In this document: positions 36,201-61,098 of the stretch, piece after piece
How positions within the stretch are numbered: position 1 is the stretch's first letter
Layout of the letters: the number at the start of each line of letters is the position of its first letter
Assembly (NCBI GenBank): GCA_964017185.1
Contig: OZ024884.1
Location: 13,927,548 to 13,991,547, forward strand
Source of the DNA: Rugalucina vietnamica
Taxonomy: Eukaryota; Mollusca; Bivalvia; Lucinida; Lucinidae
Reading direction: 5' to 3'
DNA length: 64,000 nucleotides
Position numbers and translations under genes: made by a program
Notes under the pieces: generated by a model
Told to the model about the DNA's origin: nothing
What the model saw: only the letters and a program-made list of their open reading frames with translations
Databases searched by the model: none

Positions 36201-39200
36201 TAATTTTTATGCAGTATGCACTAAGAAAGCAAACTCTGTAGGTTCAAAAATTAGCTGGTCAAATCGTTATTATTTGAGCTGCGGCTCGAGAAAACCGTTC
36301 TTCGGGATTTCCGACCTGGTCTGACACAGACTGGCCTGTGCACCTACAGAAGATGGCTAGAAACTTAAAATTTCGGATTTAGGAAGAAGGAAAATTGTAC
36401 TATTCGTGCAGCGAAAACAAAGGCGCTGATCAGCTCTGCAGTTACTGCACAGCTGATCTGCACCTTTGTTTTCGCATAGGCAAAAAAACTGGTTTTCTCA
36501 TGACGCGGCTCTTTTATGTCAAGCATGGGGGAAGTTTTCCTTTTTGAAGTTGTCTTTGCTTTATGATTACTTGGCGAAAATTAAGTTTTTCAATGCGAAC
36601 ATTTTTGAATTTATGGTAGTGGTAACTGTCGATTTTCCAGGATTTGGTTTTAACACTAGTTTATTAATAAATTCACATATATAATAATGACAATCAATAA
36701 ATCAAAGGATCAGAAAATGAGCTTCAAGGAAGATTTGAGATTTAGATTCAGAATCTTTCTCCTATTTTTCAGTGGAGTATTAAGGAATTCAACGCAAGTC
36801 AGGATGCCCTGTTAAACTTTAGAGGTAAGTATATGAGCCGCCTTGTGGGAAAACCAACAATGTGGTTTCTGAACAGGTCCGACACAAACCGGGCTGTAGA
36901 AGCACAGAAACAGCTAGAAGCTTGAAATTTCGGATTTATAAAGAAGAAGAGAAAATGTACTACGTATCCGTGTAGCGAAAACAAAGGTGCTGATCAGCTT
37001 CGCGGTTACCGCGAAGCTGATCTGCGCCTTTGTTTTCGCATATGCAGATTGTTGGTTTTCCCATGAGGTGGCTCATATAACATGGCCATGTACACCCCAC
37101 TTTCATTTAGTAAAACTGGAAAGTACATGGATATACATTGATAATCTTCTTCTAAAACACAGACAACTTCGATTATGCACCCACAATCTATGTTTTTAGT
37201 TATAATAAGGAAAATTAAAAAAGAAAATCAAACTAAAATTTTCCAATATTTTTTAGCTGATAAAAATAATCTACAGTGGCACGTTTTGGTAAGATTTCCC
37301 AAAGCCTAGTGACCAAACAGTGAAAAATCAGACCTGTGATGCGACTTATCAGTTCTCATTACAGGTCAACTTCATTTTAACAAGCCTTATTATAATGGTC
37401 TTTTCAATGTTAAACGACCATGTCATGGCTCCCAAAATGATTATATTGCTATATGTCTACTGTAAATAACCTCATGATAACATGGTTTCACGTATAACAC
37501 GGTGAGTTACCCTGGACCTCAAAGATAAGTTATAATAATGAGATTGACCTATATTTTCAAATTTCGAGTAATCTACGACATTTTCCTTTTTAATTTTCCG
37601 CAGCATTATTGTATGGTTAGTATGTGTCTTGCTTGCAACTATGATTTCTATTTATAGCCCCGCTTTGGAAAAGTGGGGCTATACTGGATTCACCCTGTCC
37701 TTCCGTGGTTCCGTGGTTCCGTGATTCCGTGATTCCGTCATTCCGTGAACATTTCGTTTCCGCTCAATATCTTAAGAACAAATTGACAGAATCTGACCAA
37801 ATTTTGTATGCACATCAACATTGACAAGATCTAGCCTGGGATTGTTGCCCGTCATTTTTCGCAAAATTTTGACGGAGTTATGGCCCTTGATAGACGTCAG
37901 AATTTCGTTTCCGCTCAATATCTTGAGAACGAATTGACAGAATCCTACCAAATTTTGTATGCACATCATCATTGACAAGATCTAGCTTGGGATTGTTGCC
38001 CGTCATTTTTTTCAAAATTTTGACGGAGTTACGGCCCTTGATTGACGTCAGAATTTTGTTTCCGCTCAATATCTTGAGAACGAATTGACAGAATCCAACC
38101 AAATTTTGTATGCACATCAACATTGACATGATCTAGCTTGGGATAGTTACCCGTCATTTTTCGCAAAATTTTGACAGAGTTACGGCCCTTGATAGACGTC
38201 AGAATTTCGTTTCCGCTCAATATCTTGAGAACGAATTGACAGAATCCTACCAAATTTTGTATGCACATCATCATTGACAAGATCTAGCTTGGGATTGTTG
38301 CCCGTCATTTTTATAGCCCCGCTTTGGAAAAGTGGGGCTATACTGGATTCACCCTGTCCTTCCGTGATTCCGTCTTTCCGTCCTTCCGTCTTTCCGTCAT
38401 TCTGTCTTTCCGTGAACAATTCGTTTCCGTTCAATATCTTGAGAATGGCTAGACAGAATTTGACCAAATTTTGTATGCACATCAACATTGACAAGATCTA
38501 GCTCGGGATCGTTACCCGTCATTTTTCGCAAAATTTTGACGGAGTTATGGCCCTTGATTGACGTCAGAATTTCGTTTCCGCTCAATATATTGAGAACGAA
38601 TTGACAGAATCTGACCAAATTTTGTGTGCACTTCATCATTGACAAGATCTAGCTTGGGATTGTTACCCGTCATTTTTTGCAAAATTTTGACGGAGTTATG
38701 GCCCTTGATTGACGTCAGAATTTCGTTTCCTCTCAATATCTTGAGAACGCATTGACAGAATCCAACCAAATTTTGTATGCACATCATCATTGACAAGATC
38801 TAGCTTGGGATTGTTACCCGTCATTTTTCGCAACATTTTGACGGAGTTATGGCCCTTGATTGATGTCAGAATTTCGTTTCCGCTCAATATCTTGAGAATG
38901 AATTGACAGAATCCGACCAAATTTTGTGTGCACATCATCATTGACAAGATCTAGCGTGGGATTGTTACCCGTCATTTTTCGCAAAATTTTGACGGAGTTA
39001 CGGCCCTTGATTGACGTCAGAATTTTGTTTCCGCTCAATATCTTGAGAACGCATTAACAGAATTCGACCAAATTTTGTATGCACATGATCATTGACAAGA
39101 TCTAGCTTGGGATTATTACCCGTCATTTTTCGCAAAATTTTGACGGAGTTATGGCCCTTGATTGACGTCAGAATTTCCTTTCCGCTCAATATCTTGAGAA

Positions 39201-42200
39201 CGAATTGACAGAATCCGACCAAATTTTGTATGCACATCAACATTGACAAAATCTAGCTTGGGATTGTTACCCGTCATTTTTCGCAAAATTTTGACGGAGT
39301 AACGGCCCTTGATTGACGTCAGAATTTTGTTTCCGCTCAATATCTTGAGAACGAATTCACAGAATCTGACCAAATTTTGTATGCACATCAACATTGATAA
39401 GATCTGGCTTGGGATTGTTTTCCGTCATTTTTCGCAAAATTTTGACGGAGTTACTGCCCTTGATTAACGTCAGAATTTCATTTCCGCTCAATAGCTTGAG
39501 AAAGAATTCACAGAATCCGACCAAATTTTGTATGCACATCAACATAGTCAAGATCTAGCTTGGGATTGTTACCCGTCATTTTTCGCAAAATTTTGACGGA
39601 GTTACGGCCCTTGATTGACTTCAGAATTTCATTTCCGCTCAATATCTTGAGAACGAATTGACAGAATCCGTCCAAATTTTGTATGCACATCATCATTGAC
39701 AAGATCTAGCTTGGGATTGTTACCCGTCATTTTTCGCAAAATTTTGACGGAGTTATGGCCCTTTATTGAGGTCAGAATTTGCGTTTCGGCTCAATATCTT
39801 GAGAACGAATTGACATAATCAGACCAAATTTTGTATGCGCATCAATATTGACGAGATCTAGTTTGTGATAGTTACCTGTCATTGTTTTTTTTTCACCCTG
39901 CAAAAAAGCTGAGAAGCGGGGCTATAGTCAGATTCTCTGACAATTCTAGTTTATTTTTACAGCCAACCTGAGCCATATCAAACCATTCTTCGAACAGATG
40001 AAAGAATCAACAGAGATACTGTGGACATTACAAGGTATGGATTGCTTGTAGATGGTCTTATCATACACAATGGGTCATTTCATTTGAAATTTGTTAAACC
40101 TGCAGCTGCTGAAGACTAGGTCCCTTCGACTCACAACATAGACTCCAACCTTGTCACAGTATGTTCTTGGCGGCCTCCGTGGCCGAGCGGTTAAGAGCGC
40201 TGTCTCTTAATCACTTGATCATCTCACCACTGTGTCTGGTGTAGGTTTGAGCCCGGCACTGGCCACATGTGAGACAAGCCAAGTTTTGCTTCCCGGTGTG
40301 TCAGGAGATTTTTCTCGAGGTACTCCCGTTTTCCCCCTACCTACTGATTGGCCCGTCTCAAATGAGCTGAAATAATCTTAAAAGGGACGTTAAACTGAAC
40401 TAAAAAAGAAAAATAATAAAAAAAATAAAAAAAACTATGTTCTTGTCACCTGTTTGTCCAGAAAATTGTCATGGGAACTGGAATCTATATAGCTGGAGAG
40501 ACCAGGTCCCGAGGTTATAAAACTTTTTTCATGCTCAACTCAGCAGAGACTGAAATATATCCTGCTCAAAAATGTTAAAATGCCAACAATTGTTGGCCTC
40601 TTAACATTTATTAGCAGGATAAATTACTAGATTTTGAGTTTTGAACCTGAATTTTCCACTAATTTTGACTATTTCTGCATTTATGAGCAGTTGAAATTTC
40701 ATGCTCAGCTGAGCTTTTGAATTTTTTTATAACCTTGAGGCCAGGCTTGAGCCCATAACCCCTGATTTATTAGGCAAGTACCTTTACCACTTTGCCACTT
40801 CCAGTATTTTGGACAAAACAGTAATATCTCTGTATGACCTTCTCTTTAAGAGGGATGTTATGCCTGTACATCAGAAAAACAGGTCCATGAAAAGTATACC
40901 CTTTTAGACCCCAATGTTATAGTAAAACTGGTGTGTGAAGTGGTAGACATTTTTTTCTTTTTATGGGTCCAAAACGTAGATTGAGGGTACAGAGTTCTAA
41001 TATGAACCCACAATCAATGTTTTGAGTGAAAATAATGAAAATATTTTAAAGAATGCAACTGATTTTTTTGTATATAAAATCTCTGTATAATGCATGGGCG
41101 AACTTCGTAATAATTTTGATGTATGTAGAATATGCAAATGTTTTGATTCCAGACCCAGTGTTGCCATCACGACTGTCTATAAATAGATCCATGATAACCA
41201 ATGAACAGATAGACAGCTATAACAAAGCTGCTTTGGAAATTTTGTAAGTACATTTTGTCCTATATGTTTTAAATTCTAACACCGAAGGAGTCTAAGTTGG
41301 TGAGAAGATTTGTAATACATGTAATTAAAAGATTATTTTACTTTCTCCCAAATTATATATCTTGGCAGCTCACCTTTAGATTTTGAAAAGAAAACAGCTA
41401 CAGATTTATTGTTTAATTCAGTTTTTAGTCCCTTTCAAGATTATTTCAGCTCATATGAGATGGGCCAATCAATAGGTGGGGCGAAAACGGGAAAACCCCA
41501 AGAAAAACCATCTGACACACCCGCAAGCAGAACTAGGCTTGTCTCACATGTGGCCAGTGCAGGGCTCGAACCCACACCAGACAGCGGTGAGATTATTTTG
41601 TGATTAAGAAACAGTGCTCTTAACCGCTCAGCCACGGGGGCAGCCACAGATTTGTTTGTGTGCTTCTTGAATTATAATGGCATAATAACTTACTGAATAA
41701 AAATATGAAAGCAGGTTTAACTTACTCAGTCAATTGATAAAACTATCTCAAAAGGTGACTAACTGTGCTTCATTTTGGCAAACTTAAATATTTTATTTAA
41801 TGAAAATTAGATAGAATTTCCTCCAAAATTTCATCATTTTACTTTACTACATGAGAGCCGCGTCATGAGAAAACCATATTTTCGCCTATGCGAAAACAAA
41901 GGTGCAGTAACTGCACAGCTGATCATCGCCTTTGTTGTCTCTACACAGATAGTACAATCCCTCATCTTAAATCCGAAATTTCAAGCTTCTAACCACCTTC
42001 TGTGGCAGCACAGACAGGTTTATGTCAGACTTGGTCGGAACTCCCGAAGACAGGTTTCCTTGCATTGTGGCTCATGACATGTACTGATTTTACTGTTTTG
42101 GAACAGGTCTGGTAGCTCAGCAAAGATATGGAGTTCATCTCGCCTGGTGGCCCAGGGTATGAAAAAAGAACTTGTGGACGGAATACATCTCTCAGAGAAG

Positions 42201-45200
42201 TCTTTAACTCTGGTAAGACTTGAATGTTGTTCGAAAATCTGCCTTTGAGATTTTTGGACCAGGCCCCGAGGTTATATAACTTTTTTCAAGCTCAACTCAG
42301 CTGAGCATGAAATTTAAACTGCTCATAATTAATGAAATAACCAAAATTGGTTGATGTTTATGGTTCATATTGCTAAAGCCTGTAATTTATCCTGCTAATA
42401 AATGTTAAAATTCCAACCATTGTTGGCATTTTAACATTCATTTGCAGGATAAATTTTAGTCTCAGCTGAGTTGAGCATGTAAAAAGTTTTATAACCTCGG
42501 GACCAGGTTGTTCACAAACTGGACTGTGCAGCAAGCCAAAATGAACAGGTCCAGCTGTTCAGCCAAGATCTTTCGAATAGTTTCCGTTTATAAATGTACC
42601 CTCCAGCAGTTCATAAAAAATGCTGACGTTTTTGGAAAACCATGTAACATTTTTGCAGTTTTCAGAATTCTGAAAATCCCTTCTTATAATGATTTTTGTT
42701 TAGACAACCGTATGACACTTCTTAATGAGTTAATGCACAAGTTGTACTCACAATTAAAAATGTGAAGCCCATTATGAACCCATGGAAAAAAGACTGTGTT
42801 TATGGAAATCTGATACGTTGGATATTAGTAGCACTAAAAACTGGCAGTGCTTAAATTGGTAGGGTGCTTCCAAACTATTGAGCAAGACAGGCCATATCCA
42901 ACTGATTGGGTAGAACATTGGACTTGTATGTTTTTGGATGTTAAATCATTGGTTTATGAATATTCATTACAGGATGTCCAGATGCTCATGAATATGTATT
43001 GTAACAACCATATGAACCACAATGATGAGACTTGTTGCAGACCACAACTTTACAGAATTTTTATCATGAATATTCATGTATAGTAATGATAAGCTCATAA
43101 ATATTCATTGCAGGATGTCCAGATGCTCATAAATATGCATTGTAACAACCATATGAACCACAATGACGGGACATGTATGCTGCAGTAGCATGGAGCAGAC
43201 CAACATTTCAAAATTATAATTATCATGAATATTCATTGATGATATCAGTAGTTTATGAATATACATTACAGGATGTCCAGATGCTCATGAATATGTATTG
43301 TAACAACCATATGAACCACAATGATGGGACTTGCTGCAGTAATGTGGAACAAACCACAACCTTACAGATATTTACTGCCGCTTTCTTCCTTGTATGGTAA
43401 GAATTGTTACTTTTAAGTTATCTTTGTAATTCTACTAGGGGTGATCGGAAAGTACGTATAAAAATGCTGTAAAATAAGTTTGCGTCAACCGATTGATATG
43501 AAATTTAGTGCGAATAAACATTGATCCTTTGGAAATTGAATGCCACTGTCATTTTAAAACAATGACGTCAGACGTTCATGCACGAGACAGCGTAATGACG
43601 TCACTTCACATAACCCGGTGCACCTGTACCCATGGGTTGACTTAATCAGTGTATTTTGGTGTTTGGGAAAGTTGAGCGACATTTTTTTTTTCATGAAAAA
43701 TAATTTTCTAACATTGGTTGACCATTTTTCGAAAACATACGGCATTCTGATGCTTTATCTACTAATAAGGTGAAATTGAATTCAACAGGTTAGCGTAAAA
43801 TATGCTAGAACTTCCATTTCATTTTGTAAAGTTAAATTCAATACCTTGTTTTCTGGCCGAAGTTTAACGAAATGATAAAAATACTGACATAAACTGTAGC
43901 TAGTAGAGACAATGTCAAGAATAAAAATGTTTCGACATTTCAGTAAATCCCTATATACTTTTAAAAAATGACTTCGCGAAAATGCAACATTGTCGAAAAT
44001 CTTAACAGTTTAATTTGTCTATTTGACAGAGTCGGTATTTGCAAGACTCTAGAGACAAATCCATTCGATAAAAATCCTCGTAAAGTTCTTTACAAACATA
44101 AGCCGTGCACGTTGTAGTTTATAAGTATTAAATAAAATGTGGGCATACGCAATCAAAACGGGTGTTAAATTCTTTGAACTAAAAAGTATTTTGAAAGAAT
44201 AAAGCTTCGGCGTTACGCTGTGCCGCATAATGTTAGGCAGTGTTTCCATAATGACAGCTGCAACGCACATGTGCAAGCTTATTATGCATGTGTTGTTGCA
44301 ATGGAATAACTGCATATATGTTGCTGCATACTGTGATGAAATTTTATCTAGAAATGATGAAAACTAAAGAAATGAGAACATTTTTATACATACTTTCCGA
44401 TCACCCCTCGTATGTTCATTATTTACTGGTACAGCCAAAGGCATTGTATTTTGCTGATTTGCTAATAAATTTGCTTTTGCTTTGCATTATTATATAAACT
44501 GAAATCTGTGAGATATACAATTGATTATCTAAGAAGCACTATGAAAAAAGAGCCCCAAAAACCTGTCTTCATATGGAGTTCCTAATCAGAAACTCTTATT
44601 CTTGAACAGTATTGTTATGAGAAATGACAGTCTTGTGTAGCCCTAATCTAAAGCATGGAACTGAATGGCAATAAAATGACACGAGAATATGTTCTTATTT
44701 TCAGTATTTTATCAGCTATAGCCTTGATTATATACAGAAAAAGAATGAGAAGAAATGGCGCCAAAATTAGAAATGGTAAGTTTACATAATTTTTAGTAGA
44801 TGAATTTGTTAAAGGTTTAGTGTAAGGAAAATGGTGGCTCAGTGATAGATTGTCATACTTGTGAAACTATTCTTCATACCTAAGAAATGGTTAAAAACCT
44901 TAACTGGTATAAAAACAAACAAAAAAAAACTTTTCATACATGGCATGTTGCATGTTGTCGTAAAAAACGTTTTCACCGTATATAATTTTCCACCAGCCAT
45001 GATCTGATAGATTTCAGTTTGATACTTAGCATGATTAATGTCGTCAGTTTGGGTAATTTTTATTTTATATTTGAGCCTTCGCATGGAAAAACCAATTAAT
45101 TTGGTTTCCTACCAGGTCCGACACAAACCGGGCTGTACAGCCTCAAAAGCCGACTAGAAGCTTTAAATTTTGGATTTAAGAAAAAGAGGGATTGTACTAT

Positions 45201-48200
45201 CGGTTTAGTGAAAACAAAGATGCATCTTTGTTTTCACCTATGCATTTTGTTAGCTCACCTGAGCCGAAGGCTCATAGGTGAGCTTATAGTATACCCATGC
45301 TCCGGCGTCCGTCCGTCGTCGTCCACAATTTCAAAGATCTTCTTCTCTGAAACCGCTGGGCCGATTGCTCTCATATTACACATACACCATCTACAGGTAG
45401 GGGGAAAGAATAATTGTGTTTTTTGTTTTGATCGGATAAGGACTCTGGTTGCTATGGCAACTTATGCTTCCCATAGACTTATAATGGAAAAAAGTGAAAA
45501 TTGCCAGTTTTTGCTGTCTTGTTGGAGATTCTTGAATTTTGTTTTTGCAGAAATGTTTATTGAGTAGTCCTCTACGTTTCATGTGACTTTTGTTCTAATC
45601 CTTCATTTTGATTGGTTGCAGGGGCCCCATTTAGGGCAAAATTTTGAAAAACATTCAAAAATCTTCTTCTCAGAAACTGTCAAGGGGATGAAGCCTATAC
45701 TTTGTATACATGTTCCTGACAGTGGCCTCTACATAATTTTTGTTTTTTATTCCAGGCAGATAAGAACTCTGGTTGCTATGGCAACTTAAAGTTTCCATAG
45801 ACTTATAATGGGAAAAGTGGAAATCAGCTATTTTTCCGCTAAAATTGCAGACATTTGAATTTTGTTTTTGCAGAAATGTTTATTGAGTAGTGTTTGACGT
45901 TTCTTGCGAGTTTTGTCCTAATCCTATATTTTGATTGGTTGCTGGGGCCCCATAAAGGGCAAAATTTTGAAAAAAAACATTCACAAATCTTCTCCTCAGA
46001 AACTGTCAAGTGGGTGAATCCTGTACTTTGTATACATGTTCCTGACAGTAGCCTCTACATAATTTGTGTTTTTTATTCCAGTCGGATAAGAACTCTGGTT
46101 GCTATGGTAACTTTAAGTTTCCATACACTTAAAATGGGAAAAGTGGAAATTAGCTATTTTTTGAAAACTATTGCAGCCTGAGATCTGAAAAGTGGTAGAT
46201 GCAAACAACTAGGGTTAATGGATTAGATGAAGGTATATGATAAATTTAGGTCAAGGTCATCTCTTGACCTTGGCCGGTCTGTCATCCATACACACTTTAC
46301 AAAGACTTTTTTTCTCTGAAACCACTTGGTCAATCAAAGCCAAATTTTATATGAAGCATCTATGGGAAGTGGGAACCAATGTATATATAAATAATCCAGG
46401 TTACATGACCAAGATGGCCGCCATGCCCATATATGGTAAAAACCCTTAAAATATCTTCTTCTCCAGAACCGGTGAACCGATTTCAACGAAACTTTGCATG
46501 AAGTATGGATGACTTAAGTACTACAATGTGTATATAAAACATGACCCTGTGGTGACCCTGACCTATTTTATGGCAAGTTCAACATAGGTCGTCAATGCAT
46601 TTGAATGGGGAAAACTTTTAAAATGTCATTTTATGTGAAAGTCTTGCAGGAAATGGGCAGTAGGACTGAAATTTAATGATCTTGCTTTTAAAATGTTATT
46701 TGAAGGGGACAATCAGCAGGAAATTGGCAAATGGACAGAATATTGATTATTCTGAAAAAAGAAAATGGCACAAGGGCTTCATCTGCCCCTGCACTGGGGT
46801 TAAATACCATAATATTCAAATATGTTTATTGGTATATGAAGCAGATCTCAGGTGAGCGTTTACAGGACCGTTGGTCCTCTGGTTGGTTTTCTTATGCGGG
46901 GGCTCATTTCTCCATACAACTATATTATTATGCACTTAGGCACTCACATCTGAACAACATATTCTAATGACTACCCACCAACCTAATAATGCTTTGAAAA
47001 CTGGAGTCATGTTCCGACTTAAAATATTCCTGCAACAAGGGCCTTGATTCGGGCTCCTGCTTACTGTTGCAGGCAGTTATCTTCATAGGAGGATCAAGTC
47101 TGATACAAGTTATCTTCAAAAAGTTGGACCGCATTGGGCAGCCATTAGTAAGTCTGCTAGTTAAGGGATAGTCTTCGTCATCATCATCATATGCAGCAAT
47201 ATCATCATCATAATCATTGTTGGCATCATCATCATCATCATTGCAGTCTTTGTCAATACCATTGTCATCATTATTGTCATCATCATTGTCATCATCATCA
47301 TCGTCATTATTATCATCATCATCATACTCATCATTATCATCATTGTCATCATCATCATCGTCATTATTATCATCATCATCATACTCGTCATTGTCATCAT
47401 CATCATTGTCATTATTATCATCATCATCATACTCGTCTTCTTCATCATCATCATCACTATCATCATCATCATTGTCATCATCACCATCATCATCATACTC
47501 ATCATTGTCATCATCATTGTCAGCATCATACTCATTGTCATCATCATCATCATTGTCATCGTCATACTCATTGTCAATCATCATCATCATTGTCATTATC
47601 ATCATCATAAAACTCATCATCACCTTCAAATCATCATCATCTTATCATCATCATCATCATCATTCTTATCATCATTGTCATCAACATCATCATACTCATC
47701 ATCATAGTCATCATTATCTTCATCATCATAATCATCATCATTGTCATCATCAATATCATGCTCATCATCATTGTCATCATTATCATCATCATCATACTCA
47801 TCATCATTATCATCATCATACTCATCATCATTGTCATCATTATCATCATCATCATACTCATCATCATTATCATCATCATACTCATCATCATTGTCATCAT
47901 TATCGTCATCAACATTGTCATCATCATTGTCAGCATCATCATTATTATGATCATCATCATTAACATACTCATCATCATCATTGTCATCGTACTCAACATC
48001 ATTATCATCATCATACTCATCATCATTACCATCATCATACTCATCATCATTGGCATCATCATTGTCATCATCATCCTACCATTATCATTGTCATTATTTT
48101 CATCATTGTCATTATCATCTTCAAATCATCATCATATCATCATCTTATCCATTTTAAGTCTGTTGTCCTCTTCTGAGGGTTGTACTTGCTTGAAATGTTT

Positions 48201-51200
48201 TCTTTGACAACCACTTCAGACTGAACGAAATTACACTTTCCAAGCTTTTATCTATTGTCCAATAACACTTTGTCCCATGTTTTCCTTAATTTGCTGGATA
48301 TCTTCTGTACAACTATGTTATGCTTGTGTACTTGAGCAGTCCAGCCATAGTGTGTCAGGTCTAATCCTCAGTCATTTGTGCTGGGCCGTCGGAGTTTCCG
48401 ACCAGGTATGACACAAACCGGCCTTTACAGTCACAGAAAAAGGCTAGAAGCTTGAAATTTCGGATTTAAGAAGAAGAAAACATGTACTGTCCGAGTAGCA
48501 AAAACAAAGGCGCTGATCAGCTGTGCAGTTACTGCACAGCTGATCTGCGTCTTTGTTGGTGCATAGGCAGAAATCGGGTTTGCTCATGATGCAGCTCATA
48601 TAAAGGGATGCCGTTGCCAGATAGATGGGTCATTTCTGAAATTTCCAAAAAACACCGTGAGAATAAGCTATGTATGGATTAGATGTTATCATGAGGATTT
48701 TATCATTGAAGAACCGTCCTGGAACGGTTTGGATAGAAAAAATGACTGTCCAAACACGACTAAAATTGTTGATGATTAATGTAAACTTTTATTAAGAAAA
48801 TATCACTATATACAAGGTTTTGGTCAGGGGTAGAAATTCTTATCTATCCCTGGTTGTCTGTCCCTGCATGCATGCACGTAACATTGGTTGAATAGGACAC
48901 ATAATTTTGTTGTAAAGTGCACACATCACAACAACGTCAGAAACGTTCTATTTCGAAATGGCACAAGGGATTGCAGCGTTTTTCAATGTAAATACATATA
49001 TTGTGAAAAATCAAGCTTTGCCGCATTAAGGCGTGCAAGAAAAAGAACCCATCATGCATGTAAGGTACGGATAGACAAATCTTCCTTCAAGTCACAGTTT
49101 GGCATCACTTGGCCAGCCTTGTGATGCCAAAGTGACCCTTAGGACAGATTTGTCTATCCATCCCTGAAACTCATGTAAGGTTCTTATATTCAAACAAACT
49201 GATGTTGAGCCCCAGACTCCAAATTAAGAGGTCCTGGGTTCAAATCCCATTGTTGCTGGGTTCCATGGTTGAGCAAGGCACAGTTAAGTTCCACTGGTAC
49301 TAGTTAATACCCAGGAAGGGGTGGCTCCATCAGGTAATGACTGAAAAATTGTTGACTGGGACTTAAGCCATAACCAAACAAACAAACTTCCGTCTAACAT
49401 TGAAAGAAACCCCTCAAGACAACTTTTTCTCAATGCGGCTTTTTCCATTTTGCAGGTAAAAGTCATACTAGAAGCAAGTCGGATGCCACATTAGTGAAGG
49501 AAGCTACAGAATCGCTATACGAAGTACTGACATCACTTGCTAAACTGGGCGTTATTATGGCTTACTTTTATCTATGCGACAGGTAGGGGCTAACATAATT
49601 GTAGTCTAAATTAGACATAATGTACTAGGATCTTGTCTGATGATTGGTGAAAGGAGCTACATACAGTGTCACTATACGAAGTACTGACATCACTTGCTAA
49701 ACTGGGTGTTATTATGGCTTACTTTTATCTGTGCGACAGGTAGGGGCTAACATAATACTTTGATTTAGAATATTATTCTAAGATTAGTCTTATGCCAAAT
49801 TGGTAAAAGAAGCAACAGTCACTATATGACGTATTGACATGGCTTGCTGAACTGGGCATCATTATGGCTTGCTTTTATCTGTATGGCAGGTATTAACTTA
49901 AACATTGTTGCTTTTATGAATCATTAGAGAAATGATTTTAAAAGAAGAATAACATTTTACAAACTCTATATTGCCTATGGAAAAGATCTTTGGACAGTTA
50001 GACTGTTTTTTTTTTATCTGCATTATTGCATCCGGTATCACACGATATTAACAGCCATATATTAATGAAAAGAAAACCATGTATTATTATAGCAATTCAC
50101 GCGCGCACATGCTGTTAATACATGGCTTGTATTTATGCTCATTACTGTGCGCCACGCAAAACACTTTCTAGTAATGAGTAACTGAAGTCCGCTCGGAACA
50201 AGCATAAGAATGAAAACTTTTTTAAAAATGTGTATGAAAATGTGATGAGGCTGCAAAATATAGTGTCATTCATAAACATTGGCTAGGTCTCTAGGGGAGT
50301 GTTGAAAACTGAGGGCTACGGTATTCAACACTCCCCGAGGGACCTAGCGAATGTTAATGAATGGAAATATTTGATCCCTATATTATATTGGCAACAATTT
50401 GGAAATTTATGTAATTGGCAATTGTGATGTATCTCTACTCTAGAAGTATAGGAGTGTTCATATGCATTCTGTTTCAGGACTACATTCTTCATGAAAGAGA
50501 ACAAGTACTACACCCATGTCAACTTTTTCCTGCCGTTTGCCTACATCATGATTCTAGGATTCTTTTTCACAGAAAGCACTGATAAGGTAAGCGATTCCAT
50601 CCACAAGCAAACCTTGACCTACATGTACACCTTGCCGCGACGGGAGAAAACTGGTATTTAGGATTTCCGACCATGTCCGGTGGCTTTGAAGGGCTGAAAT
50701 GGGAGTCCAAACGCTGTCAAAAACATCTGGAAAACGGTGAAAAGTCATGGAAAAGTCAGGGAAAAGTCAGGCAATTTTGAAATGGAAAATGAGTGGCAAC
50801 CCTGGTAAGCGATTCCAGCCACAAGCAAACCTATTTGAGCGGCGATGAGAGGAAACTGGTCTTCGGGAATTCCGACCATGTTCGACATAAATGGGTCTGT
50901 GCAGTCACAGAAGATAGCTAAGAGTTTGAACTTTCGGATTTAAGAAGAAGAGAAATTGTGCTATCTGTGTAGCGAAAACAAAGGCACTGATCAGCTATGA
51001 AGTTACTCCAGGACATATTATCCTGATATGAAACCTGCTGTTGTGTAAACATTTTTATAAAGACAATTAATCCTCAGTAGTATAGTGCAAATACTTTGAC
51101 TGTGCCGCTTGACCTCACATGATGAAATTTTGTAAACACTAGAAAAGGAGCACCTATTTGTACACATTTTTCCAGTGCCATGTGAAGCATGCCATCATAC

Positions 51201-52396
51201 ATTGTTTACCATTACATTCGCATTGCTGAACACAAGAGTTATTGAAGCAGTCTGATCAACAAATGCATATCTATGTCAGAGGTTAACGGGCATGGTCAAA
51301 GAATTTGCACTATACTGGTTAAATACCCAGGAAACCATGCCCCTTAACAGTAAAAATAAATAAATAAACAAAACATGGCTTTTGGCTTGCAAGTAGCCTG
51401 ATTTTACTATCTCTGTAGGAAAAGACACATAGTAACTGCATTGTAATAAATATATTTTCCTGAGATTTGTAGTTTCCTTCTCTAAAATAATGAAACACAA
51501 AAAATGCTGATCAAGAAAGTATAAGTAGTTTTGTGTCATTGACGTTTAATAGAAAATGAAATTTAAAAGTTTGATCCTTTGGAAGCAGTAAAAACGTTTA
51601 AAGGGATAGTATGAGTCATATTGCGCAATTTTAGGTACTGAAGTTGTCACTGTCAGTACTTATGATAATCCCCTCTATTAGACACTATTGAATCTGTTTT
51701 CAGACGGAAGTTTTACACCGTGACCAGACAGATGAACTGAAGGGATGGATGCAATTAGTTATAATGATATACCACCTTACTGGGGCTAGTCAGGTTAGTA
51801 TAAATATTAAACATATTTCATGTGTTTAAATGACATGATAATTATTACGGGAATATAACTTTCACCTTATTTTACATATTACAGGCATTTACTATTTGCA
51901 CTTTTGTGTCCTGGTGTCATGCTAACTATTCCTGAGTGGATACAGTCATTTCAAACACTTCTGAAAGAAAGGAAAATATGGCCTGTAATGATTTTCAGCT
52001 AAGCAACACTTACAATTTTGGTGCTGTGACCAGGATCTATGTTTATGATGAAAATTCTGACAGAATAAATGATAAATATTTCACACTCTTTTGTAATTAT
52101 TACCAATCTACATGCACATTCGTGTCTTAGTGTCATGCTACCTATTCTTAAGTGGTTACAGTCATTTCAAATATATTTGGAAGAAAGAAGAATATGGTCT
52201 TTTCAGATACTGTCAGCTTTGCAGCACTATATTATAATCATGGTGTTGTGACCAGGACTTATTTTTTACCTTACAGGTATTACCGATCTACATGCACATC
52301 CGTGTTCTAGTGTCCTGCTACCTGTTTCTGAGTGGGTATGGTCATTTTACATACTTTTGGAAGAGAGGAGAATATGGCCTCTTCAGATACTGTCAG
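30131..52396 (+). CDS. CASD1: N-acetylneuraminate 9-O-acetyltransferase, coding exons 1-14 (3' end outside window)
   Basis: CASD1 transfers acetyl from acetyl-CoA to sialic acid (CMP-sialic acid) in the Golgi lumen. It has a lumenal SGNH-hydrolase-like domain plus a multi-span membrane domain. The 14 exons found here join in frame at every junction and give residues 1-496; the human protein is about 797 residues. Residues 22-40 are a signal anchor. The block-I nucleophile is Ser100 in GDSRIRQ, and the catalytic Asp271/His274 lie in [10 protein letters not shown], matching human Ser94 and Asp270/His273. A second membrane span covers about 314-336, and further spans begin in exons 11-14. [11 protein letters not shown]...[10 protein letters not shown] and [11 protein letters not shown] are clear family matches. 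Exons 15 onward must lie beyond 64 kb, since nothing matching was found in 52.4-64 kb. Introns are loaded with transposons, and exons 9, 11 and 14 have extra tandem copies. Identity is very sure. Confidence 0.95.
31240..31440. mobile_element. Hairpin element, second copy (left part)
   Basis: It matches 17315-17515 (GAAGCCCAAAGGGCTTC centre). Its continuation, expected immediately downstream, is found only at 33329, because the 31441-33328 insert splits it. It lies in CASD1 intron 1. Confidence 0.75.
32305..32445. mobile_element. MITE-B left-half fragment
   Basis: It keeps AACATGCCCATGTAGTATAC, TTTTTGCTCAAAACATAGAA and GTTAGAATCGCC, then breaks off at the centre. Confidence 0.65.
33037..33200. 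mobile_element. MITE-A fragment
   Basis: It retains GAAAACCAACAATCTGCATA and an inner hairpin altered to GATCATCTGTG / CACAGATGATC on both arms, but lacks both outer ends. Confidence 0.7.
33329..33605 (+). mobile_element. Hairpin element, second copy (right part)
   Basis: Homologous to 17521-17800. It ends 10 bp before the acceptor of CASD1 exon 2, so it supplies the branch-point region of that intron. Confidence 0.7.
33616..33712 (+). CDS. CASD1: CASD1 exon 2
   Basis: The acceptor TATTTTTCAG ends at 33615. The exon encodes residues 44-75 with [13 protein letters not shown] and [12 protein letters not shown], the conserved lumenal N-terminus of the family, and ends two bases into Glu76. Donor GA|GTAGGT. 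Confidence 0.92.
34200..34436. mobile_element. MITE-A copy in CASD1 intron 2
   Basis: Complete copy with a perfect GCTTCGCAGTTACTGCGAAGC tip. The ends are of the two different classes (GAGCCTGTGCG and GATGCGGCTCA). Confidence 0.85.
34603..34833. mobile_element. MITE-A copy next to exon 3
   Basis: Ends 29 bp before the first base of exon 3. The hairpin is shortened on one arm (GTGCAGTTACTGCGCCTTTG). Confidence 0.85.
34863..35049 (+). CDS. CASD1: CASD1 exon 3 (GDS catalytic box)
   Basis: The acceptor TTTTTGTAG ends at 34862. It encodes residues 76-138, including [19 protein letters not shown] with the nucleophile Ser100. Donor GTT|GTAAGT, phase 0. Confidence 0.95.
35050..36076 (+). other. CASD1: CASD1 intron 3
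   Basis: About 1.0 kb, AT-rich. No recognisable transposon, which is unusual among the larger introns of this gene. Confidence 0.7.
36077..36187 (+). CDS. CASD1: CASD1 exon 4
   Basis: The acceptor ATATTTACAG ends at 36076. It encodes residues 139-175 ([12 protein letters not shown] ... NLVVTGSAT), aligned with the human DFLWHPEVNGSM and AGAAT segments. Donor ACG|GTAAAT. Confidence 0.92.
36274..36511. mobile_element. MITE-A copy in CASD1 intron 4
   Basis: Complete copy. The left end is degenerate (TGAGCTGCGGCTCGAG) and the right is CATGACGCGGCTC. Confidence 0.85.
36773..36824 (+). CDS. CASD1: CASD1 exon 5
   Basis: A 52-bp microexon-like exon with acceptor TATTTTTCAG. It encodes residues 176-192 ([17 protein letters not shown]) plus one base, donor G|GTAAGT. 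Confidence 0.9.
36833..37076. mobile_element. MITE-A copy adjoining the exon 5 donor
   Basis: Starts 8 bp after the exon 5 boundary, directly behind the GTAAGTAT donor. The hairpin tip is perfect (GCGGTTACCGC). Confidence 0.85.
37077..37290. mobile_element. MITE-B copy (eroded)
   Basis: It keeps CATGTACACCCCACTTTCAT and GCACCCACAATCTATGTTTT. The central GCCTCGG is lost. Confidence 0.55.
37361..37555. mobile_element. Pogo-like non-autonomous element, second copy
   Basis: Ends ACAGGTCAACTTCATTTTAA and ATAATGAGATTGACCTAT. The interior is inverted relative to 26530-26722 (GCCATGACATGG vs CCATGTCATGGC). Confidence 0.6.
37656..39928. mobile_element. TIR element containing a 14-unit 151-bp minisatellite
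   Basis: The ends TATAGCCCCGCTT and AAGCGGGGCTATA are inverted repeats. Between them are 4 units (37757-38310) and 10 units (38416-39890) of a 151-bp repeat, each containing TTTCCGCTCAATATCTTGAG and GACGGAGTTA(T/C)GGCCCTTGA. The two blocks are separated by a second copy of the left end (38311-38415) with its TTCCGT(C/G)-rich leader. Because 151 is not a multiple of 3, each unit opens a shifted frame, giving a ladder of spurious minus-strand frames of about 83 codons. It lies in CASD1 intron 5 and ends 34 bp before exon 6. Confidence 0.85.
39963..40034 (+). CDS. CASD1: CASD1 exon 6
   Basis: The acceptor TTATTTTTACAG ends at 39962. It encodes residues 193-216 ([15 protein letters not shown] ... 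ILWTLQ). The human counterpart is NITSIAPLLEKL ... VYWVLQ. Donor G|GTATGG. Confidence 0.92.
40169..40430 (+). mobile_element. SINE-A copy in CASD1 intron 6
   Basis: The A box (GTGGCCGAGCGGTTAAGAGC) is intact, the tail is complete and a long A-rich end runs at 40400-40435. It lies in the same orientation as the gene. Confidence 0.85.
40507..40745. mobile_element. MITE-C copy in CASD1 intron 6
   Basis: Complete copy. The central hairpin is of the type GCCAACAATTGTTGGC, a perfect 16-bp palindrome. Confidence 0.8.
40873..41097. mobile_element. MITE-B copy (centre deleted)
   Basis: The arms TCCAAAACGTAGATTGAGGG and CCCACAATCAATGTTTTGAG remain, but the GC-rich centre is lost. It ends about 55 bp before exon 7. 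Confidence 0.65.
41153..41243 (+). CDS. CASD1: CASD1 exon 7
   Basis: The acceptor TTTGATTCCAG ends at 41152. It encodes residues 217-246 ([20 protein letters not shown] ...) plus two bases of Leu247. [14 protein letters not shown] matches human MITNEKIDAYNEAA. Donor TT|GTAAGT. Confidence 0.95.
41408..41643 (-). mobile_element. SINE-A copy in CASD1 intron 7, inverted
   Basis: The head complement GCGCTCTTAACCGC-like sequence (GTGCTCTTAACCGCTCAGCC) is at 41615-41634 and the tail is at 41408. It is opposite to the copy at 40169, so the two flank exon 7 as an inverted pair. Confidence 0.85.
41853..42075. mobile_element. MITE-A copy in CASD1 intron 7
   Basis: The hairpin is partly deleted on the left arm (GGTGCAGTAACTGCACAGCT). 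The right end TTGTGGCTCA is 32 bp before exon 8. Confidence 0.8.
42107..42212 (+). CDS. CASD1: CASD1 exon 8 (Asp/His catalytic box)
   Basis: The acceptor TTTTGGAACAG ends at 42106. It encodes residues 247-282, with SRLVAQ and [10 protein letters not shown] carrying Asp271 and His274. It ends in phase 0 at CTG|GTAAGA. Confidence 0.95.
42262..42507. mobile_element. MITE-C copy in CASD1 intron 8
   Basis: Complete and the best preserved: GAGGTTATATAACTTTTTTC and AAAAGTTTTATAACCTCGGG at the ends, with the central TGTTAAAATTCCAAC / GTTGGCATTTTAACA hairpin. Confidence 0.8.
42952..43065 (+). pseudogene. CASD1: Decayed tandem copy of CASD1 exon 9 (copy a)
   Basis: After an intact TTCATTACAG acceptor (exon-like start 42973), 22 codons match real exon 9 with one amino-acid change (G to E). 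A 13-base deletion relative to the real exon (loss of the TAATGTGGAACAA segment) then shifts the frame, and the exon breaks off near 43065 with no donor. The transmembrane-coding end is missing, so it cannot replace exon 9. Confidence 0.9.
43092..43225 (+). pseudogene. CASD1: Decayed tandem copy of CASD1 exon 9 (copy b)
   Basis: It has a TTCATTGCAG acceptor and exon-like start at 43114. M-to-I and Y-to-H changes follow. A small insertion (ACATGTATGCTGCAG) then leads to an in-frame TAG at about 43186. It has no donor. Confidence 0.9.
43272..43396 (+). CDS. CASD1: CASD1 exon 9 (functional copy)
   Basis: The acceptor ATACATTACAG ends at 43271. It encodes residues 283-323, from [20 protein letters not shown] with CC, to the start of membrane span 2 ([11 protein letters not shown]). 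The human counterpart is MILMNVYCNK ... DGSCC. Donor TG|GTAAGA. It is the only one of three copies with a full frame and both splice sites. Confidence 0.93.
43435..44410. mobile_element. Mariner-like non-autonomous element in CASD1 intron 9
   Basis: A TA on each side (43433-43434 and 44411-44412) bounds 976 bp. The TIRs of about 30 bp are CTAGGGGTGATCGGAAAGTA ... and the complement of CTTTCCGATCACCCC. A TA target site and a GGGGTG-type TIR fit the mariner superfamily. No transposase reading frame remains. Confidence 0.75.
44705..44775 (+). CDS. CASD1: CASD1 exon 10
   Basis: The acceptor CTTATTTTCAG ends at 44704. It encodes residues 324-347: the end of membrane span 2 ([11 protein letters not shown]), then a basic cytosolic stop-transfer RKRMRRN. 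Donor G|GTAAGT. Confidence 0.9.
45071..46907. mobile_element. MITE-A copy split by a 1.6-kb element
   Basis: The left part runs 45071-45251 with a shortened hairpin (GATGCATC). The right end (TTGGTTTTCTTATGCGGGGG then CTCA) resumes at 46880. Confidence 0.8.
45252..46878 (+). mobile_element. AGCTCACCTGAGCC-type element nested in MITE-A
   Basis: It starts TAGCTCACCTGAGCCGAAGG with a GGCTCATAGGTGAGC hairpin and then a GTCCGTCCGTCGTCGTCC leader. It contains three degenerate units of about 300 bp (each with TCTGAAACNG(C/T), a GTT(G/T)CTATGGCAACTTA phrase and TCCATAGACTTATAATGG), then a loose segment. It ends CAGGTGAGCGTTTACAGGAC then CGTTGGTCCTCTGG. No ORF. From memory this family is widespread in bivalve genomes. 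Confidence 0.75.
47175..48135. repeat. (ATC)n microsatellite, about 0.95 kb
   Basis: Nearly pure ATC/TCA trinucleotide with occasional G, A and C interruptions. Higher-order units (TCATCATCATTGTCATCATT blocks of 63 bp near 47760-47890) show recent internal duplication. Any reading frame across it codes only poly-Asp, Met, His, Ser or Ile and is spurious. It lies in CASD1 intron 10. Confidence 0.95.
48383..48599. mobile_element. MITE-A copy in CASD1 intron 10
   Basis: The left end is eroded to GGGCCGTCGGAGTTTCCGAC. The inner hairpin is complete and the right end is GATGCAGCTCA. Confidence 0.8.
48830..49170. mobile_element. Hairpin-ended repeat in CASD1 intron 10
   Basis: The right part folds strongly: GGATAGACAAATCTTCCTTC then TTTGGCATCAC, against GTGATGCCAAAGTGACCCTT then GACAGATTTGTCTATCC (49067-49161). 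The left outer part (TATCTATCCCTGG) matches the right outer ATCCATCCCTGAAA. No coding role. Confidence 0.55.
49203..49388 (+). mobile_element. SINE-B copy just upstream of CASD1 exon 11
   Basis: The B box GGTTCAAATCCC is at 49228-49239. The tail is TTGTTGACTGGGACTTAAGC with an ACAAACAAAC end. It ends 68 bp before exon 11. Confidence 0.8.
49456..49582 (+). CDS. CASD1: CASD1 exon 11 (copy 1, functional)
   Basis: The acceptor CCATTTTGCAG ends at 49455. It encodes residues 348-389 plus two bases: a polar linker ([20 protein letters not shown]), then membrane segment [20 protein letters not shown] ending in the conserved CDR. Donor AG|GTAGGG. Confidence 0.93.
49640..49752 (+). pseudogene. CASD1: Tandem copy 2 of CASD1 exon 11 (near-intact; possible alternative exon)
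   Basis: From the Ser-Leu-Tyr codons to the donor, it differs from exon 11 at three positions, all synonymous. It keeps the same AG|GTAGGGGCTAACATAAT donor region. The original acceptor and linker are not preserved, but ACATACAG at 49661-49668 is a possible acceptor. Splicing from exon 10 into 49669 would stay in frame (phase 1 in, phase 2 out) and give a shorter linker. It lacks a good pyrimidine tract, so use is uncertain. It could equally be a recent or gene-converted duplicate. Confidence 0.75.
49800..49893 (+). pseudogene. CASD1: Tandem copy 3 of CASD1 exon 11 (decayed)
   Basis: The homologous frame is open, but seven of about 24 residues changed, including TWLAELG for TSLAKLG and FYLYG for FYLCD, destroying conserved positions. 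Splicing at the nearest AG (CAACAG) would hit a TGA. A GT follows the exon-like end. Confidence 0.85.
50266..50365. mobile_element. Hairpin MITE in CASD1 intron 11
   Basis: The arms CATTCATAAACATTGGCTAG, GTCTCTAGGGGAGTGTTGAA and their complements fold around a short GAGGGCTACGG centre at about 50310-50322. Confidence 0.7.
50478..50586 (+). CDS. CASD1: CASD1 exon 12
   Basis: The acceptor TTCTGTTTCAG ends at 50477. It encodes residues 390-426: [20 protein letters not shown], then membrane span [11 protein letters not shown] and TESTDK. Human has FMKENKFYTH at this place. Donor AAG|GTAAGC. Confidence 0.95.
50637..50690. mobile_element. MITE-A end fragment
   Basis: GACGGGAGAAAACTGG and GATTTCCGACCATGTCC match the MITE-A terminal segment only. 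A nearby direct repeat (GTAAGCGATTCCA..CCACAAGCAAACC at 50586 and 50806) shows that the exon 12 donor region was duplicated with it. Confidence 0.6.
50836..51010. mobile_element. MITE-A left portion
   Basis: Runs from TTGAGCGGCGATGAGAGGAA to the left arm of the inner hairpin (AAAGGCACTGATCAGCT), then breaks off. Confidence 0.75.
51011..51703 (+). other. CASD1: CASD1 intron 12 remainder
   Basis: No coding or confidently recognised repeat. A SINE-B-like TTAAATACCCAGGAAACCAT phrase at about 51318 may be an old fragment. Confidence 0.5.
51704..51793 (+). CDS. CASD1: CASD1 exon 13
   Basis: The acceptor CTGTTTTCAG ends at 51703. It encodes residues 427-456, [20 protein letters not shown] then [10 protein letters not shown], a highly conserved family block (human [20 protein letters not shown]). 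Donor CAG|GTTAGT. Confidence 0.95.
51895..52010 (+). pseudogene. CASD1: Tandem copy 1 of CASD1 exon 14 (decayed)
   Basis: An intact ATATTACAG acceptor leads into exon-14-like sequence with deletions near the start (the MHIR region is lost) and a frameshift. It ends GGCCTGTAATGATTTTCAG without a donor. The downstream intron piece GGTGCTGTGACCAGGAT also matches the later copies, so the duplicated unit includes flanking intron. Confidence 0.9.
52096..52215 (+). pseudogene. CASD1: Tandem copy 2 of CASD1 exon 14 (frame intact, splice sites lost)
   Basis: The whole homologous frame is open and ends in RYCQ like the true exon. Against exon 14 I count 14 synonymous and 5 amino-acid-changing codon differences over 39 codons. 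The acceptor AG is absent (TTTGTAATTAT) and the donor GT is replaced by CT (CAGCTTTGC). This pattern suggests a former functional alternative exon. Confidence 0.9.
52277..52396 (+). CDS. CASD1: CASD1 exon 14 (functional copy, last exon in window)
   Basis: The acceptor TTACCTTACAG ends at 52276. It encodes residues 457-496 ([20 protein letters not shown] then [20 protein letters not shown]), in phase 0 at CAG|GTATGC. The human counterpart is [11 protein letters not shown] ... GYGHFSYFW. Confidence 0.95.
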
Positions 52397-54189: not shown

Positions 54190-57100
54190 TAGTTAGAGCC
54201 CCAGCCATCAGAAAAATGGTGATAGGTGGTCGGAAAGTAGCACAAATTTCATTCATACCCTCTTGTAGAGGAACCCATTGGAAGCTTGAAAACCAATGTT
54301 TGATCAATTTTAAGTCTTGCAAAAGTGTTGAAATTATGAGATGTATACTGCTACACATGGCATTCTATAATGCGATTCTCTAAAATGAGGGTGAACATAC
54401 AAAATTGGTCATATCTCTGCTGTTACTTATCCTACATCACTGAACCTGGTCTCATTTTAAAGCTTAGATATAGCCCTTTTAATCCTATGGAAAGTAATGC
54501 AAGTCATCTAATTTGTATATTCATGAATTTTAATGAGAACATTAAAATGACAGAAAAGAACATTAAAAATCCATAACTAAACTAATTTGAGGCCCAAACT
54601 ATTTCTGTGACACTTTTCTATTGAGCCAGTAATATCATATGACAAGTGTTTTGATGTCAAAGGCCTAAATAAAAATTATTTCCTTTGGTTATTCATGAAT
54701 TTTAATGAAAACGTCAAAAATCAAGGAAAAACAAGGGAAAAACTATAGCCATTGCAAGGTGTTGGATAGGTTATTAGATCTATCTTGCATAACTGAGACC
54801 ATACTATAATTGGTCTGATATTGATGCATGTACCTAGCAATTTAATTTTGATACCTGATATTCAAATTATTGAATTTGCCTATTCATGAAAATTAAAAAA
54901 AAATACCCCATAAGAAATCGGAGACAAATCATGGATAATAGGGGGTGTATGTACAAAATCACTTGTTCCGGAGCTGTTAATAAACAGGTATCAAATAACT
55001 GCTATGGCAATGTACTATGATCCTAAAGTATGATATAGGACTAATCTGAGTTTCAATTTCATGAGTTTTAATGAAAACTTTAAAAATTTGGAGAGAAAAA
55101 GTGAAAAGATTAAACGGGTAAACCTACAAAATGACTTGTATCTCGGCAATCAAAGGCCCTAAAGTGCTGAAAATGGCATCAAATTGTTGCTAGAGCAAAA
55201 TTATACCATCCTGTACTACAATATATAAGTCATTTGATTTTTAGTCAAAACCTTCAGAATTTAGAGAAAAATATACAGAAAAATAAGGAGGTATACATAG
55301 AAAGACGAATATATCTTGGCTACTGATAGACTTAAAGAGCTATAATTGGTATCAAATGGTTGCTAGGACTATGTTATATAACCGTGTAATCTCATATATA
55401 AATAATAAGCTATTTTTGTTGTATGGGTGTCAATGAGATCTTTGTAAATAAGACAAAAAGCAACGAAAACTGAAGGGGTACACAAACAAAATCGCGTATA
55501 TCTTGACTGCCAAGAGCTGTAGAGAACTTAAAATGGCATCAGTTTATTGGTAGGACACTGCTTTATTGCCATGTGTTTAGCTATATAAAGTATGCTTGCT
55601 TGCAATCAAGATTTTTAAAATAAATTTTGTTGGAGCACAATCTTCAATTTACTGTCATTTCCACAATTTCTCAAAATTTTGTGTTACACTTAGAAAATGC
55701 AATAACATATGCTTAAGCTATCAGACCATATGGCAATAGTGCATTATCCCAGCATTCTATTGGTACCATTTTCAATTCTCTAAGGATATTGGCAGCTGAG
55801 ATACAAGCGATTTTGTTGGTGTACCCATTCGTTTTTTCATTGTTTTTCTCTTATTCATAAAGAACCTATTAATATCCATACAACAAAAATAGCTGATTAT
55901 TTATTTATCAGATTGCACGGTTATAGAACATTGTCCTAGCAATCATTTGATACCAATTATAGCTCTTAGGTCTATCAATCAAGATACATGTGATTTTCTA
56001 TGTATACCGCCCTAACTGTTCCATAATTTTCCTCTAAATTCGAAAGCTTTTGTTAATATTCATAAAGCAAAAAATCAAATGACTCGTATATTGTAGTATA
56101 GGATGGCATAGTTTTGCCCTAGCAACCATTTGATGCCATTTTCAGTATGTTAGGGATTTTGGTTGCCGATATACAAGTCATTTTGTACGTTTACCAGTTT
56201 CATTTTTCCATTTTTTTTATATTAAAAAGTCTCCCTGTACACCATCCATAGTGCAGGTTATATTTTCTTTTTGGCCCTTTGAGATCAGCGAGGATATTCT
56301 GAGAAATCAGAAATTTATTATCTATTTAGATATATTTTCATGTTTAATATATTTCATTTTTGGTCACATTATGATAATACTAGTCTTTGTATCGACTACC
56401 CTGTTTTAAATTGCAAAATTTCAGTAATTCTCTTTGGCTCCATGTTGCCAAATCTAAAGGGTCACTGACGAGACTTTAAAAGTCGAAACCGCGGTATGGC
56501 CCATCCCATTTCTCATTAATGTGTTCACTGCTCTTAAAGGATCTCAGTTTTAATTTTTATTATTCATTATTATTCATGAAATTGAAAATCAGATCATTAT
56601 TATATCAGACTTACGGGACATAGAACATTGCCATAGCATTCATTTGATACTTTTTTCAGCATCCTGAGTTTGTTACCAGCTCTGGTACAAGTGATTTTGT
56701 ATGTCTACCACTATTTTTCCAAGATTTTTTTTACAGATTTCTTATGTATTTTATTAATTTTCATGAATAAGCAAACGCAACCATTTGAATAATAGGTATT
56801 AAGGTAAAATTGCTTGGTCCATGCATCACTATCAGACCAATTATAGTATTCTAGAGCATGCTATTGTTGGTATATGTATATTTTTGAGTATCCTATTCAT
56901 TAGAATCACACTAGGGGTAGGAGTGGAAACTATGTAATTTTACATCATGTAAATGCGTTCATTGTTGAGGACAATACTTTATGACATTTGGGTGATACCT
57001 CTGACTATACTTGAAGCCATGCGAATTGGTCCCAGGGATGCAAGATAGATCTTATAACCCATCCAAAACCTTGCAATGGCAACAGTTTTTTCCTTTGTTT

Positions 57101-60863: not shown

Positions 60864-61098
60864 AAAAAGAAAAAGAAAAAGGTGTGTATGAACCGTGTCG
60901 GCCCCTCAGAGTTCGGCCCTTTAAATGGCGTGTTTATTCGTGATAATATTGTCAAGTTTAAGTAATTTCTAGATGTCTTCATTGCTCGCAATGCGTGAAT
61001 GACGCTCAATATTTTCATAAGATTAGCACTAAAAGTAGTTAGAATAAGACAAGCGTGTGCAATTTCTCGCTAGGGGCTTATCGATAGACCGTAACGAG

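Follow-up and report, generated by a model that had tools for sequence, protein, structure and literature searches.

The extra exon copies found in the CASD1 gene are best explained, with a probability of about 80%, by local duplication that acts throughout the genome and is followed by decay, with one possible former alternative exon among its products. CASD1 is not special in this respect: its copies are one gene's share of a genome-wide tendency. Exons 9, 11 and 14 each occur as three tandem copies, one live and two extra, and similar arrays, most of them built from half an exon, recur in unrelated gene families.

The window, that is, the whole stretch of 64,000 nucleotides analyzed here, is part of contig C16 of a 1.09-Gb genome in 47 contigs. 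Joined live exons 1–15 encode 548 residues free of stops, and a Pfam search with this product gave a match to PF07779 (the Cas1_AcylT membrane domain; E 6.3e-113) from residue 296 onward. The N-terminal luminal domain of CASD1 carries the motif GDSRIRQL, and exon 3 encodes a 12-residue stretch that answers to it. The search with joined live exons 1–15 reported no Pfam domain in the N-terminal region, and a PDB search with the joined protein returned nothing at 0.001. Judged by its predicted protein, the gene is CASD1, a sialate O-acetyltransferase. The numbering of exons 1–14 in the initial annotation is correct, given a 52-base exon 5 at 36773–36824. Beyond the window the gene extends at least to the exon here called 21; exon 16 was not located by pattern search. 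When the whole genome was searched for the family, every match above the cut-off fell at one locus; CASD1 is single-copy, and the extra exon copies are therefore not derived from a surviving paralogue.

Other repeats were observed in the CASD1 introns. Intron 5 contains a 151-bp satellite-like array in two blocks with adjoining 8-bp repeats (37751–39886), and intron 10 contains nearly 1 kb of an imperfect TCA microsatellite (47178–48144). Within intron 14, a 400-bp unit lies in tandem at 99.8% identity (56896–57706), a very recent local duplication, and a 727-codon open frame at 61095–63278 resembles, by eye, a retroelement reverse transcriptase.

To locate copies, 19 located exons (all but exon 5 and the unlocated exon 16) were aligned locally against 2 kb on either side, with 60 shuffles each as the null. 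Exons 9, 11 and 14 scored 127, 141 and 138, respectively, compared with 34 or less for the best shuffle, bearing out the triplications that had been proposed from the sequence. Exon 15, which lies outside the window, has a partial copy of 62 bases (score 94; null no higher than 30). The remaining 15 of the 19 tested exons scored 19–25, none above its own shuffles, with exon 10 tying the shuffle maximum (25). Copies well above shuffles were thus found for four of the 19 tested exons; exon 15, lying beyond the window, could not have been seen in the initial annotation. Successive copies are spaced by 141 and 158 bp for exon 9, as had been annotated, by 157 and 150 bp for exon 11 (previously about 160) and by 216 and 180 bp for exon 14 (previously about 200 and 181). 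The copies differ by 3–33%, with distinct indels. Being head-to-tail copies of an exon and its intron flank within one gene, they count as tandem exon duplication in a wide sense. Of the 2283 CASD1 exonic bases located, about 400 (17.5%) are matched by a copy with at least 80% identity, a figure for a gene chosen for its copies and not a genome average.

In each set, a single copy has an open frame between two homologous splice sites; as originally described, this live copy is the last for exons 9 and 14 and the first for exon 11. Judged by the presence or absence of AG and GT alone, each of the six extra copies in the window is missing at least one of its homologous splice sites.

Table 1. 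Copies of CASD1 exons and exons of the gene outside the window
Feature	Position	Strand	Description
Exon 9, extra copy 1	42973..43060	+	Half-exon: 3' splice site and 5' part; 13-base deletion; no homologous 5' splice site
Exon 9, extra copy 2	43114..43202	+	Half-exon: 3' splice site and 5' part; 4-base insertion, stop; no homologous 5' splice site
Exon 9, live copy	43272..43396	+	125 bp; both splice sites; open frame
Exon 11, live copy	49456..49582	+	127 bp; both splice sites; open frame
Exon 11, extra copy 2	49623..49739	+	Half-exon: starts within exon; 5' splice site kept; no homologous 3' splice site
Exon 11, extra copy 3	49786..49889	+	Older half-exon; 5' GT; 2-base deletion
Exon 14, extra copy 1	51885..51998	+	Whole-exon copy; frameshifts, stops; retains 3' splice site but not 5' splice site (CAG|CT)
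Exon 14, extra copy 2	52097..52216	+	Full 40-codon open frame; both splice sites lost
Exon 14, live copy	52277..52396	+	120 bp; both splice sites; open frame
Exons 15 and 17–21	outside window, up to joined position ~101966		Ends of exons 17–21 approximate

The anatomy of the copies reflects where each duplicated unit began and ended. For exon 9, the unit ran from the upstream intron into the exon, leaving the end of the exon and the 5' splice site outside; for exon 11, it ran from within the exon to the downstream intron, and the start of the exon lay outside. With one breakpoint inside the exon, the extra copies lack one splice site, and because the position of that breakpoint differs between the two exons, the live copy is the last in one array and the first in the other. 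The frame is broken in both extra copies of exon 9, by indels and then stops, and the retained part of exon 11 copy 2 keeps an open frame. The copy of exon 15 is an internal fragment. Among the CASD1 sets, only the unit of exon 14 took in a complete exon and its flanks on either side.

Copy 2 of exon 14 was one of six extra copies examined. Over 39 codons it shows 15 synonymous and 5 non-synonymous changes relative to the live exon, and its five amino acid changes all lie within 10 codons (P 0.007). Simulated copies that had been neutral since the split acquired a mean of 14–15 non-synonymous changes, and five or fewer were seen in at most 1 of 2495–2745 simulations in each of six settings; the neutral-since-split null was rejected. 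With copy 1 as the third sequence, the copy 2 branch carries 5 synonymous and 3 non-synonymous changes and the live copy 3 branch carries 7 and 3, unlike copy 1 itself, which has 4 synonymous and 14 non-synonymous changes (two of these stops) plus frameshifts and looks neutral. The copy 2 branch alone (3 non-synonymous of 8; binomial P 0.035) is a weaker test. Copy 2 scored 51 bits against PF07779, compared with 63 for the live exon. The substitution pattern supports coding constraint on copy 2; the extra copies of the other exons carry too few changes for such a comparison.

This pattern could mean that copy 2 served through most of its history as an alternative to copy 3 in splicing and later lost both splice sites, a reading confined to exon 14 that is also a clause of our preferred explanation and to which we give somewhat less than an even chance. 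Its acceptor AG and donor GT are both gone, however, and the acceptor region is strongly changed. In addition, the donor change CAG|CT is common to copies 1 and 2, which suggests that the donor was lost before these copies split and counts against long use of copy 2. Former use would require either a recent loss of both splice sites or conversion from copy 1. A surviving paralogue was considered as the source of copy 2 and rejected on the single locus found in the genome family search; a paralogue since lost could still have supplied it.

Nearby exon copies were then counted in four other gene families, using profile matches sorted into exon groups and flagging groups with more than one copy within 1 kb. 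These profile tables give lower bounds, as short or decayed copies do not score. In total, nine of 166 exon groups had nearby copies, seven were confirmed in the DNA, and all four families were represented. Adaptin_N gave 51 matches in 46 groups, with four flagged and three confirmed; the remaining adaptin pair, on C16, showed no DNA or protein similarity in the stretch compared and was kept in the nine of 166 but not among the confirmed cases. Anoctamin gave 61 matches in 44 groups with four flagged: two were confirmed in DNA, and two (profile positions 384–447/429–459 and 384–443/425–459) were judged to be neighboring exons by profile ranges, not DNA, and were not counted. MBOAT gave 15 matches in 13 groups, two flagged and one confirmed; its second pair (C14:15367753 and 15368760; E 0.013 and 0.34) was counted on the profile alone. 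Carn_acyltransf gave 64 matches in 63 groups, with one flagged and confirmed.

The confirmed copies have the same anatomy as those in CASD1. In the adaptin gene on C10, which we take to be AP-2 alpha, the 3' half of one exon and its donor occur about four times (offsets 186, 372 and 535; 2.8 units at 95% by Tandem Repeats Finder), the 5' half and acceptor of a second exon are repeated, and an internal exon fragment is copied at 95%. One anoctamin locus (C1:28876101-28877100) contains 4.9 copies of a 153-bp donor half-exon at 97%, with the live exon first, and another (C14:3006501-3008050) contains 11.8 copies of a 101-bp acceptor half-exon at 98%, with the live exon last. A carnitine acyltransferase gene carries an acceptor half-exon copy (97% over 136 bp) with the live exon last, and in the MBOAT case an internal piece of an exon recurs a few hundred bases away from the original. 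In all seven half-exon arrays (CASD1 exons 9 and 11, two in the C10 adaptin, two in anoctamins and one in carnitine acyltransferase), the live exon is on the side predicted by the breakpoint. Internal fragments number three (CASD1 exon 15, the adaptin exon and MBOAT), and CASD1 exon 14 is the sole whole-exon case. Since the youngest arrays are still at 97–98% identity, the duplication process is recent or ongoing.

The copy number of the two young anoctamin arrays may vary between individuals. Two further exons each gave three stop-free matches about 2–3 kb apart, namely an adaptin exon (profile 41–86; C13:11421171-11427005) and a carnitine acyltransferase exon (profile 61–120; C1:4397111-4401016); both are candidates for complete, perhaps alternative, exons.

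The rate of local duplication was estimated from clusters of head-to-tail similarity with an offset of 80–500 bp and a length of at least 60 bp. The 64-kb window contains 12 such clusters, covering 12.4% of bases, and 20 ten-kb stretches elsewhere contain 35, covering 14.2%. Sixteen of these stretches came from 16 contigs at one arbitrary coordinate and four lie near the window, of which one shares 1547 bases with it and another contains exon 15. Across the 302,453 bases sampled there were 51 clusters, of which 18 had no relatives at other places in the sample, and the best identity per cluster ranged from 67 to 100%, a spread that ongoing duplication would give.

The initial annotation had considered three triplications in one gene hard to put down to chance, an argument that proved weak. 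When all clusters were shifted along the gene, a mean of 2.9 of 20 exons were hit compared with 3 observed (P 0.55); shifting only clusters without interspersed relatives gave a mean of 0.6–0.9 exons (0.85 for the 20) and P 0.078. For the 14 window exons alone, the corresponding values were P 0.37 and P 0.053. This test misses exon 15, and its exon ends are off by up to nine bases. Chance at the genome's own duplication rate is a fair account of the CASD1 copies, although the gene may be mildly enriched. Of the two causes that had been suggested, a local duplication mechanism is supported but is not specific to CASD1, as head-to-tail local duplications occur in the sampled stretches and exon copies in other families. 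Past selection for alternative exons finds support at exon 14 copy 2 only.

That CASD1 is instead a hotspot, or that its arrays derive from an exon-carrying mobile element, is improbable. The four exons hit in one gene speak for it, as do the P values of 0.05–0.08 against clusters without interspersed relatives. When CASD1 (4 of 19, by DNA) was compared with the other families (9 of 166, by profile tables), P was 0.03, with unequal sensitivities on the two sides; a like-for-like profile comparison, in which the CASD1 figure of 2 of 12 was set by hand, gave 2 of 12 versus 9 of 166 and P 0.16. The three CASD1 exon arrays, however, are without relatives in the rest of the 302 kb sampled, an exon 9 query against the whole genome returned only the three local copies, and unrelated genes show the same anatomy.

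Mutually exclusive exons, present or past, selected in the CASD1 membrane domain at all three sites are very unlikely. The PF07779 match does cover exons 11 and 14 and the greater part of exon 9, and the open frame, substitution ratio and clustered changes of exon 14 copy 2 are in keeping with such a history. Cryptic splice sites could also yield shortened in-frame exons: exon 9 copy 2 has a candidate donor in matching phase (GCA|GTAGCA, with the GT after 71 bases), and exon 11 copy 2 has AG in matching phase before 49667 and before 49682, behind poor tracts with 5 and 7 pyrimidines of 13. Against this, the extra copies of exons 9 and 11 were born without part of the exon and without one homologous splice site, which makes mutually exclusive use unlikely, barring those cryptic sites, and all six extra copies in the window lack at least one of the pair. 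Past selection for alternative exons is unlikely at exons 9, 11 and 15, because their copies are incomplete exons that miss one or both homologous splice sites. An 11-base intronic element, TGTGACCAGGA, occurs downstream of exon 14 copies 1 and 2 and differs by one base at the live copy. Its reverse complement has no exact site in joined positions 51001–82000, where two one-mismatch sites lie about 14–15 kb off; competing docking and selector RNA structures at exon 14 were dropped for want of an exact complement nearby. An assembly artefact is hardly credible: nothing was found in its favor, the copies differ by up to a third and carry distinct indels, and like arrays with different periods occur at unrelated loci.

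For the preferred explanation, genome-wide local duplication with decay, we infer the following course. The genome would continually generate short duplications (about 100–450 bp) that place copies of local DNA head to tail; slippage or microhomology-mediated repair is the probable source (microhomology at the breakpoints was assessed by eye only), with further unequal expansion in places. Some duplications would straddle an exon edge and produce extra copies with one splice site and part of the exon, and the intact exon would be left at the far end of the array from the breakpoint that fell within it. Lone splice sites are probably ignored, as the spliceosome pairs sites across an exon, and half-exon arrays would therefore be tolerated in introns, decaying by mutation. 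Exons 9 and 11 would be half-exon examples and exon 15 an internal fragment. The exon 14 unit would have taken in the whole exon, after which copy 1 decayed and copy 2 may have been spliced alternatively for most of its life before losing both sites.

Intronic minisatellites, or VNTRs, are a known category of intronic array, and the young arrays described here, of 5 and 12 units at 97–98% identity, resemble them; in contrast, the unit here takes in a stretch of coding exon together with one splice site. Mutually exclusive clusters such as those of Dscam1 and insect myosin heavy chain, named in PMC9013439, likewise consist of head-to-tail homologous exons in one intron region, and CASD1 exon 14 copy 2 keeps their frame and length, but the CASD1 extra copies are without a pair of homologous splice sites. 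The tandem exon duplications surveyed in that paper also resemble the present copies, being exon-like sequences beside a source exon that are often unannotated or unused; here, by contrast, the copies are mostly half-exons and some arrays are recent. The figures given there for exonic bases with a same-gene homologue at 80% or more are 0.08% in fly, 0.06% in worm and about 2% in human, against 17.5% for CASD1, a gene picked for its copies. Within bivalves, PMC5589949 reports a duplicated, alternatively spliced exon in the alternative oxidase of Crassostrea virginica, also an exon duplication inside a gene, whereas nearly all extra copies here are broken. A limited search of open-access literature, covering titles and the openings of abstracts, returned no report of CASD1 alternative exons or of pervasive half-exon arrays.

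These data turn a triple coincidence in one gene into a measurable property of the genome, and the remaining interest is in that genome-wide tendency itself and in the single whole-exon case, exon 14. One practical consequence is that exon predictors may put broken copies into gene models here. If the rate holds genome-wide, this would be a natural system for the origin of exon copies and for the tolerance of half-exons by splicing, and it would also show how often a whole-exon copy turns into an alternative exon. It is doubtful, taken together, that an unusually active local duplication turns exons, mostly halves, into silent intronic arrays and that exon 14 copy 2 once worked as an alternative exon and later died. 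If this were true, half-exon arrays would linger as raw material for exons, and the lineage would openly display how tandem exons are born, used and die, perhaps tens of times as often as in fly or worm.
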